A stretch of DNA of 34,903 bases from NCBI GenBank assembly GCA_945889645.1, contig CAMDCA010000020.1, positions 1 through 34,903 of the forward strand. Reading direction: 5' to 3'. The position numbers and the translations under genes were made by a program. The notes beneath the pieces are model-generated. The model worked only from the letters and a program-made list of their open reading frames with translations. It was not told where the DNA came from and made no database searches. The DNA comes from Rhizobium sp. Q54 (GTDB taxonomy: Bacteria > Pseudomonadota > Alphaproteobacteria > UBA2966 > CAIVPW01). Shown here piece by piece: positions 24,800-29,157 of this stretch (its first letter is position 1; each line of letters begins with the position of its first letter).

Positions 24800-26001
24800 G
24801 ACAACACCTCGACTACTCGTTCGACTGCATCGGTGATGGTTGCGACGTCGTCCACCAGCGCGACCCGCACATAGGCGTGTCCCGGATTGGCGGCGCCGTC
24901 GCCGTGACTGAGATAGGCACCCGGCATGACGCGCAGGGCTGCCTTGGACCACAGCTTGCGCGTCGCGTCTTCGCCGTCGCGCACGTCGAGCCACAGGAAG
25001 AACGTGCCCTCGGGCCGGCGGAAGCCGAAGCGATTGCCGAGCACGCGCTCTGCGGCATCGAACTTGGCGGCGTAGTCGGCGCGGGTAGACGCGACGTGAT
25101 CGTCGTCGGCCCAAAGCGCGGCGCTGGCGGCGAGAATCGGTCCCGGCATGGTCGGCGCAGCGTAGGCGCGGAAGCGCGCGAAGGCGTTGATGATCTTGTC
25201 GTCCCCGGCGGCGAAGCCGGAACGCAATCCGGGAACACTGGAGCGCTTGGACAGCGAGTGGAACACGATGACGTTGTCGAGCGAGCCCGTGCGCGCGCAC
25301 ACCTCGAGCGCACCGGTGGGCGGCGTGGCGGAATAGATCTCGGCGTAGCATTCGTCCACCGCGAGCACGAAGCCGTAGTGGCGCGCGAGGGCGACGAGGT
25401 TGGCGAGATACGCCGCGCTGGCGACGCTGCCTTGCGGGTTCGACGGCGAGCACACGTAACAGAGCGCCGTGTCCCGCAGCACGTCGGGTGGCAGGCTGGC
25501 ATAGTCGGGCAGGTGTCCGGTCGCGGCGGAGGCCGGCACGAACACCGGCTCGGCACCGGTGCCGATCGCGGCGCCGGCATAGGCGACGTAGTAAGGATTG
25601 GGCAGCAGCACCTTGGAGCGACCCGCGCCATCCGCCTGCGGCGGCACTGCGACCTGTGCGACCAGGAACAGACCTTCGCGGCTACCGGAAACGCCGACGA
25701 CGTTGCGCTCGGCTGACAGCATGGTGCCGGGCAGGCAATAGCGGCGGCGCAGGTAGGCGACGACCGCTTGACGGAACTCGACGCTGCCCCGCAGGGCAGG
25801 GTAGCGGCCCCATTCCTCGCGGCGGTCGTTCACCACCTTGGCGACGAAGTCCGGAAAGGCATGGCGCGGCTCGCCCAGGGCGAGGTCGATGGGCTTGCGG
25901 CCAGGGGCGGGTTGCAGCGCGTTCAAGAGCTTGTCGAGCCGGGTAAAGGGGCCATCGCCGAGGGGACCGAGGCGGGCATCGAGCGGGCGGACTAGCCCCA
26001 T
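24796..26001 (-). CDS. PLP-dependent class I/II aminotransferase, DapC-like
   Basis: A 401-residue protein; ATG 26001 (MGLVRPLDARL) is preferred over an in-frame GTG at 26016. It has LALGEPRHAFP, GRYPALRGSVEFRQAV, LLPNPYYVAYAGAAIG, CSPSNPQGS, AVDECYAEIY and SLSKRSSVPGLRSGF, where the Lys is the Schiff-base residue. Alphaproteobacterial homologues beside ftsK are usually annotated as succinyldiaminopimelate transaminase (DapC) of lysine and peptidoglycan synthesis; substrate is not proven by sequence. It is the first gene of the ftsK run, and the insertion element lies about 210 bases upstream. Confidence 0.88.
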   Translation of the reverse strand: MGLVRPLDARLGPLGDGPFTRLDKLLNALQPAPGRKPIDLALGEPRHAFPDFVAKVVNDRREEWGRYPALRGSVEFRQAVVAYLRRRYCLPGTMLSAERNVVGVSGSREGLFLVAQVAVPPQADGAGRSKVLLPNPYYVAYAGAAIGTGAEPVFVPASAATGHLPDYASLPPDVLRDTALCYVCSPSNPQGSVASAAYLANLVALARHYGFVLAVDECYAEIYSATPPTGALEVCARTGSLDNVIVFHSLSKRSSVPGLRSGFAAGDDKIINAFARFRAYAAPTMPGPILAASAALWADDDHVASTRADYAAKFDAAERVLGNRFGFRRPEGTFFLWLDVRDGEDATRKLWSKAALRVMPGAYLSHGDGAANPGHAYVRVALVDDVATITDAVERVVEVLS

Positions 26002-26016
26002 AACCCGCACGCCCAC

Positions 26017-26240
26017 GCCTCAGGCTCAAGCATCATAACAAGAGCACCCATTAAGCCTATGATATCGGCCACAGATTGAAAAGAAAAGGGCTGTGGGGCG
26101 GGCGTTCCGCCGCGGGTGCTGATGCGCCGGGCCACCGTACATGCGGGGAAAATACGGACCGAGGGGCGCCATGCGGCTACGGGCACCGGGCGGATTCTGC
26201 TCCGCCGAACGGCCGCATGACGCGTACCGTATCAGGCGAT
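26017..26240. other. Gene-free gap upstream of the aminotransferase
   Basis: I find no gene here. The part next to the aminotransferase (26030-26090) is AT-richer and may hold its promoter, but no confident -35/-10 pair was seen. The distal part has a short hairpin, CGTATC (26227-26232 region) with GATACG ending near 26243, which overlaps the target site of the insertion element. Joining this flank to 28219 reconstructs the uninterrupted intergenic region between pyrF and the aminotransferase. Confidence 0.4.
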
Positions 26241-26248
26241 ACGTATTG
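26241..26248 (+). repeat. Target-site duplication, left copy (ACGTATTG)
   Basis: These eight bases directly before the GGG of the left inverted repeat are identical to 28211-28218 directly after the CCC of the right inverted repeat. A perfect duplication indicates a single insertion event that is not old enough to have decayed. Confidence 0.93.
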
Positions 26249-26272
26249 GGGATATGTATACTTGAAATAGTA
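26249..26272 (+). repeat. Left terminal inverted repeat of the IS1595-family element
   Basis: It begins GGGATATGTATACTTGA and ends ATAGTA. It pairs with the complement of 28187-28210 at 20 of 24 positions, including all of TATACTTGA and ATAGTA. The passenger stop codon lies only 12 bases inside it. Confidence 0.92.
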
Positions 26273-26283
26273 AACGATATCAG

Positions 26284-27066
26284 CTAGTTATTGGAACTGC
26301 GTGACAGGCCGGTTACTTTCTGTATCGTGTGGAAGAATCTCTTGAGAATCCGCCATGTGTGAGCCCACCAAGGTGCCTGAACTTTCGCCGGAGGCGGTCC
26401 GGGCGGGAGTGGATTTCTTTCTGGAATGGGAACAGTCCGAAAACTACCGGATTGAGGACCTTGTAGTAGGTCTGCATCTGCGACTATCAGCTCTTGGCTC
26501 TTGCCCGGCACAAGCGCCCCACCCATCCGAAAGTACGCCATCATAAGAGCGCCGCCGAGATGCGCGATGTCGTGCCAAAGCTTCGATAGGGTTTCCACAT
26601 CCAGCGGCAGCGCGACCATCTTTCCGTTGTGGCTGCCGTGTGCGGTGAACCGCGCAGCGGGCTGGTGCGCGCCGCTACCATCCCCGTGTATTTCAACTAT
26701 CCCGTGGACAACGATGTTGCGCCGCCAGTGAAGCTGACTCGCGTCTGCGGCGACTGCGCGTAGCGCGGCGGTTTCGTTGGGGCAGTAAGTGGTCGAGTAC
26801 TCGACCATCAGGTCCTTGTAGAGTTTGCTCCGCTTGCGGAACGACCGCTGTTTCCACCCCTTTTCGTCGCGCCCGTAGCCGGCGAGCGTTGTGCCGACGA
26901 TCATGTCCATTCGTTCTTCAAACGCGCCCCACTGCACTGCGATGCGCCCCATCAACACGGCGACTTCATCCGGCAACGGGATAACAAGTAGATGCTTCCC
27001 TGCGGCCATGTGGACGGTATTGAATTGGCCGCCAAATTCGACAACCGTTTGTTCTGAGGCGCCCAT
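26284..27066 (-). CDS. Passenger protein of the element, HEPN/Abi-like candidate
   Basis: A 260-residue protein from ATG 27066 with a strong ribosome site (GGGGGAGG, 7 bases upstream). It has no resemblance to a transposase. Residues 35-60 (VAVLMGRIAVQWGAFEERMD) and 78-122 (RKRSKLYKDLM to QLHWRRNIVVHG) are predicted helical, and the latter ends in R116-N117-x3-H121-G. This fits the Rx4-6H pattern of HEPN ribonucleases and the RNxxxHG ending seen in many uncharacterised Abi-like proteins. The C-terminal part is Pro-rich (215-230) and ends in a basic amphipathic segment (WRILKRFFHTIQK). No signal peptide is seen. Lying wholly inside the inverted repeats, it moves with the element. A toxin or defence role is inference; a regulator of transposition is the alternative. 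Confidence 0.8.
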   Translation of the reverse strand: MGASEQTVVEFGGQFNTVHMAAGKHLLVIPLPDEVAVLMGRIAVQWGAFEERMDMIVGTTLAGYGRDEKGWKQRSFRKRSKLYKDLMVEYSTTYCPNETAALRAVAADASQLHWRRNIVVHGIVEIHGDGSGAHQPAARFTAHGSHNGKMVALPLDVETLSKLWHDIAHLGGALMMAYFRMGGALVPGKSQELIVADADLLQGPQSGSFRTVPIPERNPLPPGPPPAKVQAPWWAHTWRILKRFFHTIQKVTGLSRSSNN

Positions 27067-27211
27067 GCAGAAACCTCCCCCGCAGTTTCAGCGCGTAGTC
27101 GAGAAGATGCTCGCTACGCCACCGAAACCGAAGAAGGCTACGCCTAAGAACGGCGATTCAAAATCGCCCGCAAAGCGTCCGAAAAAACCTCGAAAGGCTT
27201 TCGCGCCCTAG
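27065..27211 (+). CDS. Small highly basic protein inside the element
   Basis: A 48-residue frame from ATG 27065 (MQKPPPQFQRVVEKMLATPP), with GAGG seven bases upstream. It has 11 Lys and 3 Arg against 2 acidic residues; the second half is Lys/Pro-rich (KRPKKPRKAF) and probably binds nucleic acid or is disordered. Its ATG and the passenger's ATG lie on opposite strands and share the palindrome CATG (27064-27067), so the two genes diverge from one point and their 5' regions overlap. It ends 17 bases before the transposase stop on the other strand. Short length makes it less certain than its neighbours. Confidence 0.5.
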   Translation: MQKPPPQFQRVVEKMLATPPKPKKATPKNGDSKSPAKRPKKPRKAFAP

Positions 27212-27228
27212 GTTTCCGCTTCGTCAGG

Positions 27229-28143
27229 CTATGGGCGGTAAGTCAGCCGCTTGCCTTCGATGCCCTTTAGGGCGGCAGCGGTGCGCTCCGCATCGGTCAC
27301 AAACCGGGCGTTGTAGCGGAAATCAAACTCGCTCAGGTAGCGGTGCAAGTGCTGCTCGCTAAGGCTGTGGTAGGTGCCGTACACGCCACGCTTCAAGATC
27401 GCGAACGCGCTCTCAATCGTGTTCGTGGTCACCGCGCCGCGCGTGTACTCGCCCTTGCTGTGCGAGACGATTTCGTGCGCGGCAAACTCACGACCGATGC
27501 CGTTGTAGACCTGTGCTTCGTCCGTCATGAGGAACGACGCCTTGCTGACCTGCTTGGCGATGATCGGGCGCAACGTCTTGGCCGTGACGTTGGCAATGTG
27601 CGTTGAGCGGATTTCGCCGCCGCGCTCTACTAGCGCGAATACGGCCTGCTTGCCGCCCTTCGAGTTGTGACCGACGCGCTTGCTCTTGTGCTTGTTCTTT
27701 TCCAAACCGCCAACATAGGTTTCGTCCATCTCGACAACCTTGCCTTCGCCGCCAACGGGCGTAGGCGAGTCAACGCGCATCGCCTCACGAATGCGGTGCG
27801 TCATGAACCAGGCCGTCTTGTAGGTGACGCCAAGCATGCGTTCGATCTGCTTCGAGCTCATGCCCTTCTTCGAGCAGGAGAGCAGGTAGGTCGCGAGCAG
27901 CCACTTATGCAGCGCGATCTTGCTGCGCTCGTAGACGGTGCCAACGGTGACGGTGAAGGGCTCGCGGCAGGCGTTGCACTGATAGAGCCCCGGCCGGTGG
28001 GACTTGCCCTGCATCGCCTTAGCCTCGCCCAGAACGCCGCAGTGCGGGCAGACGGGGCCATGGGGCCAGCGGAGGGCTTCCAGATAGGCGCGGGCTGCCG
28101 CGTCGTCGTGGAACATCGGGGTGTCGAGGTATGCGTCGGCCAC
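27229..28143 (-). CDS. IS1595-family (ISXO2-like) transposase
   Basis: A 304-residue protein from GTG 28143 (VADAYLDTPMF, first residue Met); an upstream TTG at 28170 is in frame but precedes the likely transcription start. The N-terminal zinc ribbon is CPHCG and CNACREPFTVTVGTVYE. A helix-turn-helix (SSKQIERMLGVTYKTAWFM) follows, then the DDE_Tnp_IS1595 catalytic core: Asp in VEMDETYVGG, Asp in LMTDEAQVY, and the third acidic position in TNTIESAFAILKRGVYGTYH. The protein is complete. It reads away from the right inverted repeat. Confidence 0.93.
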   Translation of the reverse strand: MADAYLDTPMFHDDAAARAYLEALRWPHGPVCPHCGVLGEAKAMQGKSHRPGLYQCNACREPFTVTVGTVYERSKIALHKWLLATYLLSCSKKGMSSKQIERMLGVTYKTAWFMTHRIREAMRVDSPTPVGGEGKVVEMDETYVGGLEKNKHKSKRVGHNSKGGKQAVFALVERGGEIRSTHIANVTAKTLRPIIAKQVSKASFLMTDEAQVYNGIGREFAAHEIVSHSKGEYTRGAVTTNTIESAFAILKRGVYGTYHSLSEQHLHRYLSEFDFRYNARFVTDAERTAAALKGIEGKRLTYRP

Positions 28144-28168
28144 GGGCTTAACTCCAATCGTTAAGCCC
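28144..28168 (-). promoter_or_regulatory. Hairpin directly before the transposase start
   Basis: On the minus strand GGGCTTAAC (28168-28160) pairs perfectly with GTTAAGCCC (28152-28144) around a 7-base loop, and the GTG start follows at once (28143). The Shine-Dalgarno-like GGAG (28155-28152) lies at the loop/stem junction. RNA starting at the element's own promoter (about 28162) would lack most of the 5' arm, whereas RNA entering from outside would fold it and hide the start. A double-strand DNA operator is another reading. Confidence 0.6.
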
Positions 28169-28197
28169 AAGATAGGGTGCCTAGCCTACTATGTCAA
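28169..28197 (-). promoter_or_regulatory. Candidate sigma-70 promoter of the transposase, -35 inside the inverted repeat
   Basis: Minus-strand TTGACA (28197-28192) is a perfect -35 box and lies within the right inverted repeat. TATCTT (28174-28169) follows after exactly 17 bases and matches the -10 consensus at 4 of 6. Transcription would start near 28162, about 19 bases before the GTG. Confidence 0.65.
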
Positions 28198-28210
28198 GTA
28201 TATAGTTCCC
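28187..28210 (-). repeat. Right terminal inverted repeat of the IS1595-family element
   Basis: On the minus strand it begins GGGAACTATATACTTGA and ends ATAGTA; see the left repeat at 26249. It contains the -35 box of the transposase promoter, so transposase binding to this end could repress its own gene. Confidence 0.92.
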
Positions 28211-28218
28211 ACGTATTG
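28211..28218 (+). repeat. Target-site duplication, right copy (ACGTATTG)
   Basis: Identical to 26241-26248 and directly outside the right inverted repeat. Confidence 0.93.
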
Positions 28219-28238
28219 TGTTAAGAGCTCTGGCGGTG

Positions 28239-28272
28239 CAGTCTGGAGTGCTTCGCTTCGCTCGCAATGACG
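28239..28272. repeat. Interspersed repeat downstream of pyrF
   Basis: CAGTCTGGAGTGCTTCGCTT followed by CGCTCGCAATGACG is identical at 32 of 34 positions to 31358-31391. It lies between the element and the pyrF stop, outside the target duplication, so it belongs to the host chromosome. Its end matches the repeat at 12278, and the complement of its end matches 22281. Confidence 0.8.
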
Positions 28273-28293
28273 CAGAGGGCCGCCGCCGACGCG

Positions 28294-29052
28294 CTAGCGA
28301 CCCGCCTTGAACAGGGCGTGGATGCGGCGCTGGTGGTCAGCGGCGGCGGCTTTGGGGTCTTTCGCCCCCACGATCGGCCGGCCGACAACAATGTGGTCGG
28401 CGCCGAACTGGAAGGCTTCTTCGACATCCACGGTACGCTTTTGGTCGTCGGCCGGCTTGTTTTCGGCCGGGCGGATGCCGGGGGTGACGATCCGGAAGGC
28501 GGGCGGCACGACGGCGCGCAGGCGTTCGGCTTCCTGGCCCGAGGAGATGACGCCGTCGCACCCGGCGGCCACCGCGCCACGGGCGCGCGACAGCACCAGT
28601 TCGCCGACGTTGCCTTTGAACCCGAGGGATTCGATGCCGGCGCGGTCGAGGCTGGTGAGCACGGTTACTGCAAGAATTTTGGTGGTCTTTCGCTCGGCCA
28701 CCGCGGCGCGCAAGATGGCGTCGTCTCCATGCACCGTGCAGAAGGCGGCGCCGCGGCGCTCCAGCTGGCGCACGGCGGCGGCGACGGTGCGCGGCACGTC
28801 ATAAAACTTGAGATCGACGAAGCACTTCTTGCCGCGATCAGCGAGCCAGCCGAGGAATTCGGGGTAGGCGCCGGCAAGGAACAGTTCGAAGCCGAGCTTG
28901 TAGAACACGACATCGTCACCGAGCGTCTCGACCAGCGCCTTGGCGCCAGCGGGATCGGGCATGTCGAGCGCGACAATCAGGCGCTCGTTGACCGGAATGG
29001 ATGGGTTCGACAGCACGGTGGGTGGGCTTTGGTACCCCCGCGAACAATCCAT
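28294..29052 (-). CDS. pyrF: Orotidine 5'-phosphate decarboxylase
   Basis: PyrF makes UMP from OMP, the last step of de novo pyrimidine synthesis. The TIM-barrel signature is clear: ERLIVALDMPDPAGAKALVE, FYKLGFELFLAG, and CFVDLKFYDVPRTVAAAVRQ, which holds the catalytic Asp-Lys array. VTVLTSLD, ITPG-type VTPGIRP and GADHIVVGRPI follow. ATG 29052 gives 252 residues; GTG 29016 gives 240, closer to the family norm, and either is possible. It diverges from the metallopeptidase gene. Confidence 0.94.
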   Translation of the reverse strand: MDCSRGYQSPPTVLSNPSIPVNERLIVALDMPDPAGAKALVETLGDDVVFYKLGFELFLAGAYPEFLGWLADRGKKCFVDLKFYDVPRTVAAAVRQLERRGAAFCTVHGDDAILRAAVAERKTTKILAVTVLTSLDRAGIESLGFKGNVGELVLSRARGAVAAGCDGVISSGQEAERLRAVVPPAFRIVTPGIRPAENKPADDQKRTVDVEEAFQFGADHIVVGRPIVGAKDPKAAAADHQRRIHALFKAGR

Positions 29053-29157
29053 GTCCAGGCCGCCTGGGCACGCAATGCGCCCCGCCCCAGCGTTTTCCGC
29101 TAGGCTGTGGAGCCATCGCGGGGACGGCACGGCACCCCCTATCCTGGAAGGTCGCCC

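Follow-up and report, generated by a model that had tools for sequence, protein, structure and literature searches.

Transposase start predicted to be hidden in read-through RNA in a branch of the IS1595 family of insertion sequences

The window analysed here, a stretch of 34,903 nucleotides of Rhizobium sp. Q54 (GenBank assembly GCA_945889645.1, contig CAMDCA010000020.1), contains an insertion sequence with a passenger open reading frame (ORF; Table 1). Its transposase carries an ISXO2-like DDE domain (PF12762, 1.6e-40, 139 bits, cut-off 27) and an N-terminal zinc ribbon (PF12760, 5e-15, 55.6 bits, cut-off 25.4) and matches NF033547 of NCBIfam (1.2e-60, 205 bits, cut-off 75); against the IS1 profile NF033558 it scored 34 bits, below the cut-off of 100. 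The terminal inverted repeats are imperfect over 24 bases, with the right copy 83% complementary to 26249–26272. Target duplications of 8 bp are typical of the IS1595 family, and with its DDE domain, zinc ribbon, inverted repeats and 8-bp duplication the element is a member of that family. It is not IS10 or IS50 itself: those have an IS4-type transposase, and Pfam gives IS1595 domains only, with no IS4-type transposase. The passenger ORF had no Pfam, NCBIfam or PADLOC match and no relative among plasmids; a search of 190 genomes of the class returned its own genome and one very weak match (E = 4.7e-4). Upstream of the element, in the same direction, lies pyrF, with 83 bases between its stop codon and the element and no terminator-like site in a scan of that interval; pyrF is a possible source of read-through into the element. 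No Rfam match was found within 26000–28600 up to E = 1.

Table 1. Features of the insertion sequence and its surroundings, in window coordinates.
Feature	Coordinates	Strand	Basis
IS1595-family insertion sequence with passenger ORF	26249..28210	-	Terminal inverted repeats, 8-bp target duplication, transposase domains
Target-site duplication, left copy ACGTATTG	26241..26248		Flank comparison
Target-site duplication, right copy ACGTATTG	28211..28218		Flank comparison
Left terminal inverted repeat; TTGAAA where the right copy has TTGACA	26249..26272	+	Repeat search
Right terminal inverted repeat, contains -35 box	28187..28210	-	Repeat search
Passenger ORF, 260 aa, downstream of transposase, same direction	26284..27066	-	ORF; family searches
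Transposase gene, GTG start, 304 aa, zinc ribbon and DDE domains	27229..28143	-	Pfam, NCBIfam
3' arm of hairpin, GTTAAGCCC, adjoins GTG at 28143-28141	28144..28152	-	Fold
Loop GATTGGA	28153..28159	-	Fold; SD-like GGAG spans the last three loop bases and the first of the 3' arm
5' arm of read-through hairpin, GGGCTTAAC	28160..28168	-	Fold
Predicted transcription start, offset 34-36 from first base of -35 box	28161..28163	-	Inferred from promoter geometry and 22 relatives with ATG at offset 34-37
-10 box TATCTT, 17-base spacer	28169..28174	-	Consensus scan
-35 box TTGACA	28192..28197	-	Consensus scan; TTGAC or near variant at same place in kept relatives
Host gene pyrF (OMP decarboxylase; ORF from first possible start)	28294..29130	-	PF00215, 1.6e-45

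An earlier note on this DNA had placed TTGACA inside the right inverted repeat with TATCTT 17 bases on, and coordinates and a consensus scan confirm this. The promoter scores 10/12 against the consensus and is one of three promoter-like sites in 26200–28400, where shuffled sequences had a mean of 0.4. The same note's perfect 9-bp hairpin adjoining the GTG (28168–28144) was recovered as part of the minimum free energy fold and has −13.7 kcal/mol alone. The usual distance from −10 box to start puts the RNA 5′ end at about 28162, which agrees with the note in placing the predicted start inside the 5′ arm. The right repeat also has a TATACT (28202–28197) that overlaps TTGACA at its first base; paired with a flanking TTAACA across a 16-base spacer it scores as a promoter, the RNA of which would carry the whole hairpin.

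We calculated the cost of freeing the start region, that is, the start codon together with the 14 bases preceding it, in RNAs with different 5′ ends (modelled at 37 °C, leaving ribosomes and RNA-binding proteins out of account). The cost was 14.4 kcal/mol for RNA from 28300 or 28210 and 16.7 kcal/mol from 28168, with the whole arm present, compared with 9.1 from 28165 and 6.0 from 28162, so that the fall lies between offsets 29 and 34, counted from the start of the −35 box. RNA running from 28162 to 28144 had no calculated fold. Two consecutive in-frame TAG codons, at codons −16 and −15 relative to the GTG, mean that no outside reading frame enters the transposase; a TTG in frame at 28170 might serve as an alternative start for translation in read-through RNA. 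Taken alone, the fold energy of the 75-base stretch was ordinary (z = −1.47, with 20 of 200 shuffles equally good), and we therefore compared relatives.

The arrangement suggests how transposase synthesis could depend on where its RNA begins. The element's own promoter, with the −35 box in the terminal repeat, would start RNA within the hairpin's 5′ arm, and because the RNA starts there its own mRNA would be without most of that arm and would leave the Shine–Dalgarno (SD) sequence and GTG open. RNA from outside, which pyrF could supply here, would carry the whole arm and fold over SD and GTG, and should be poorly translated. Transposase output would be set by the element's own promoter, not by the landing site, and landing in an active gene would then not set off jumping.

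Two sets of relatives were assembled. For the first, we took the best 80 of 483 relative-encoding places in one genome collection; 73 of these 80 (74 with the window element) had the repeat, with TTGAC or a close variant of it in the corresponding position, and seven with a repeat score <13 or no start were dropped (L005, L008, L023, L053, L064, L076 and L078). Counted from the first base of the −35 box, the start codon lay 34–37 bases away in 10 elements, 47–61 in 63 and 87 in one. Start codons of L014, L031, L042 and L048, with ATG at offset 39–40, were moved by hand to the next in-frame ATG, a shift applied as a written rule in the second set. With L044 outside the length classes and eight near-duplicates removed from the 63 leadered elements, 55 remained. 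Because the hypothesis arose by eye on this first set, we built a second, held-out set from 154 places in further genomes and viral contigs. A start was obtained for 134 (20 without a start, upstream region or N-terminus were dropped), and 120 of these passed the repeat score (14 dropped); six lay outside the length classes and 104 were leadered, of which 86 were kept once 18 near-duplicates, of one another or of elements in the first set, had been removed. Together the sets comprise 141 non-redundant leadered relatives in which the repeat carries the same promoter; 423 plasmid records that contain a relative were left out. For wider scope 36 further loci were viewed, several of which were already in the sets, and the distant ones proved too heterogeneous for anchoring; the property is claimed for this branch of the IS1595 family only. 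Three distant IS1595-domain genes of another kind (L236, L247 and L250) have, by eye, inverted repeats shortly before the start codon.

Our swap test compares the opening cost of three kinds of RNA for each element: its own (from offset 35), the read-through form (beginning at the repeat) and chimaeras whose upstream part, through offset 34, comes from every other element in turn. Mean costs in the first set (n = 55) were 4.2, 11.1 and 7.1 kcal/mol for own, read-through and chimaeric RNA, respectively (Wilcoxon P = 1.2e-8), with 22 of 55 elements at rank <0.05 and the window element at rank 0.02. At the same settings the held-out set (n = 86) gave 4.39, 10.33 and 6.95 kcal/mol (P = 1.3e-13), with 34 of 86 at rank <0.05 and 80 of 86 at <0.5. 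Relatives lacking the stem, which the earlier note had named as a case against its reading, are not the rule: across both sets 85 of 141 rank <0.1, their start being hidden better than in at least nine in ten chimaeras, and 13 of 141 rank ≥0.5, with no excess hiding of the start region. Ordinary SD-bearing genes from the flanks, of similar geometry and with no promoter anchor, showed no shift (n = 75; 8.82 real versus 8.85 swapped, P = 0.12, median rank 0.58), and their shares at rank <0.05 (7/75) and <0.1 (9/75) were slightly above chance.

Partial swaps, with 40 randomly drawn partners per element in place of all, located the effect. Restricting the exchange to offsets −13 to 22, which precede the −10 box, gave 10.62 real versus 8.65 swapped (P = 6e-13), and exchange up to offset 28, the end of the −10 box, gave 10.62 versus 7.97 (P = 3e-16). 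Bases before the −10 box cannot be in own-promoter RNA, and selection on them would therefore be on outside RNA, or on DNA. Excess pairing with the start region peaks at offsets 27–36 and is gone by 38 (12 or 6 random partners each), its fading beyond offset 35 being partly built in because the swap ends there.

By eye, many longer-leader relatives have a stem over the SD or ATG, and the sequences of these stems are different. We scored the best stems with G–U counted as a mismatch; their 3′ arms sit on the SD or ATG because the test demanded it. Scores ≥7 were reached by 59 of 141 elements, compared with 12.3 per 141 chimaeras, and scores ≥9 at this place by 17, compared with 0.7. For scores ≥7 with the 5′ arm wholly before the −10 box (ending by offset 22), 16 were found and 4.6 expected; among best stems scoring ≥6, the 5′ arm ends before the −10 box in 26 of 95, against 12.6 in chimaeras. 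Mismatches in real stems comprised 43 G–U and 40 A–C, as opposed to 232:359 in swapped stems (23.2 and 35.9 per set). This G–U excess (P = 0.03, Fisher exact test on pooled chimaeras) is a weak test because the swapped stems are not independent, and gives mild support for RNA rather than DNA pairing.

Compensatory changes, which the earlier note had proposed to look for, were found in nine elements chosen for a homologous stem 14–22 bases after the start of the −35 box: both sides had changed at 5 of 9 pairs and 15 of 81 cells did not pair, a count that leans on the chosen register and elements. A MAFFT alignment of the nine leaders left the stems out of register, and the arms were set by hand and located and counted by script. 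Three of the nine (L166, L152 and L219) are near-duplicates removed from the swap sets, and five elements of the same kind (L215, L141, L138, L221 and L132), with the stem shifted or missing, were left out. The stem of the window element itself stands outside this comparison because it has no close homologue (best 66% protein identity). Across the branch, stems seem to be kept by selection on pairing, not on sequence.

These patterns bear on the alternative that the palindrome is a DNA operator through which the promoter is repressed, for example by the transposase or by a protein of the host. The position of the arms, downstream of the promoter and ahead of the start codon, would suit a repressor, and pairing alone cannot separate DNA from RNA symmetry; however, the stems vary among relatives in sequence, length, loop and place (by eye), real stems beat chimaeras under the same demand for a 3′ arm on the SD or ATG, and the excess of G–U fits RNA. 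We consider an operator unlikely.

A second class of elements informs the position of the transcription start. ATG stands at offset 34–37 in 22 elements (10 + 10 from the two sets, plus L002 and L109 (repeat score 12.5), which were put on the leaderless list by hand), and an SD-like 4-mer precedes it in 2 of these 22 versus 159 of 167 leadered elements. Judged by sequence, the 22 short-class elements are probably leaderless. Their ATG position fits a transcription start at about offset 35, in agreement with that predicted for the window element, and makes a start upstream of 28168, which the earlier note had held against its own reading, unlikely. On another view the hairpin is an always-present brake or thermometer, with the true start upstream of the arm and the element's own mRNA carrying the hairpin too. 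Such a view gains from the transcription start being a predicted one and from the change in opening cost of the window element falling within six bases; against it stand the 22 relatives with ATG 34–37 bases after the start of the −35 box, 20 of them without an SD-like 4-mer, and the 26 of 95 best stems with a 5′ arm ending before the −10 box, outside any transcript of this promoter. We judge it highly improbable. A functionless chance stem in a short leader, in keeping with the ordinary fold energy of the window stretch, is the least credible explanation, contradicted for the group of relatives by the swap tests (P of 1e-8 and 1e-13 in two sets, with ordinary genes unshifted).

The reading that transposase is well made only from own-promoter RNA, with read-through RNA folding over the start, has in our estimate a probability of about 0.85. 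As far as sequence can tell, the property would belong to a branch of the IS1595 family and not to the window element alone.

Leaderless mRNA may achieve the same result by a second route. As a rule, ATGs without an SD inside longer RNAs are read poorly; the start codon would lie at the 5′ end of the element's own RNA and, having no SD, would be lost inside a longer one. Both devices occur within one genome: the genome of the window element, with its stem, has a second IS1595 copy (L002, at G000:C12), with a transposase 61% identical, in the leaderless class. The ATG of this copy coincides with the predicted transcription start and sits at the loop of a predicted 7-bp hairpin, TCTTGGC-TATG-GCCAAGA. 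The pairing excess of the leaderless group is modest (6.5 versus 5.2 kcal/mol, P = 0.005, 7 of 22 at rank <0.1, near relatives included), and for these reasons we make no claim of stem use by its members. On a FastTree tree of 158 transposases (5 of 163 proteins, under 240 aa, were dropped) the leadered and leaderless classes are interleaved, with 19 class changes, at least 9 of them forced by well-supported branches; shuffling the labels gave a mean of 21, hardly more than the 19 observed, and 44 and 50 of 500 shuffles were as low. Whether this large branch gates transposase translation by the RNA 5′ end through either an outside-only stem or leaderless mRNA, as interchangeable devices switched many times, is to us an even bet.

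Read-through protection would on this evidence be common across a branch of a widespread family, through stems that differ in sequence and keep their place. If true, transposases of the branch are insulated from the insertion site, and leaderless translation gains a role, tying expression to the true RNA 5′ end.

Transposase domains, inverted repeats, 8-bp duplication and a passenger ORF are shared with the IS1595 family (Siguier et al. 2009). IS1 represents a related family with weak transposase similarity to the window element; there, according to a 2025 paper (PMC12428005), transcription from upstream host DNA raised transposition, and the title of Machida et al. 1983, cited in PMC12428005, reports read-through repression of IS1 cointegration. 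ISPpu9 is alike in that a structure in its transposase mRNA leader likely hides the ribosome site, and differs in that this structure is in the element's own mRNA, where it seems to be opened by an antisense RNA (PMC8450116). The parts available of two IS10 and IS50 papers (PMC5006887 and PMC4265352) make no mention of read-through control. For the IS1595 family, the earlier note had known of no such description, and among the matches listed in a literature search by title and start of abstract we found no paper on read-through control or leaderless transposase mRNA, the founding IS1595 paper aside.

Protection against impinging transcription is textbook knowledge for a few elements, such as IS10 and IS50. 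In these, transcripts arriving from elsewhere include an additional upstream arm, which pairs over the transposase start, and own transcripts begin too late to include it; the same is predicted for the window element. The calculated opening energies show a stem that hides the translation start, and its presence in outside transcripts only would follow from the sequence if the predicted start is right; the earlier note's likening of the element to IS10 and IS50 is supported by modelled energies and by the relatives. IS10 and IS50 differ in belonging to other transposase families and in being single elements studied by experiment, whereas here the case is branch-wide and drawn from sequence; moreover, in the IS1595 branch the stems are mostly different and some members look leaderless. 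The principle is known from IS10 and IS50, and its setting in the IS1595 family appears to be new.
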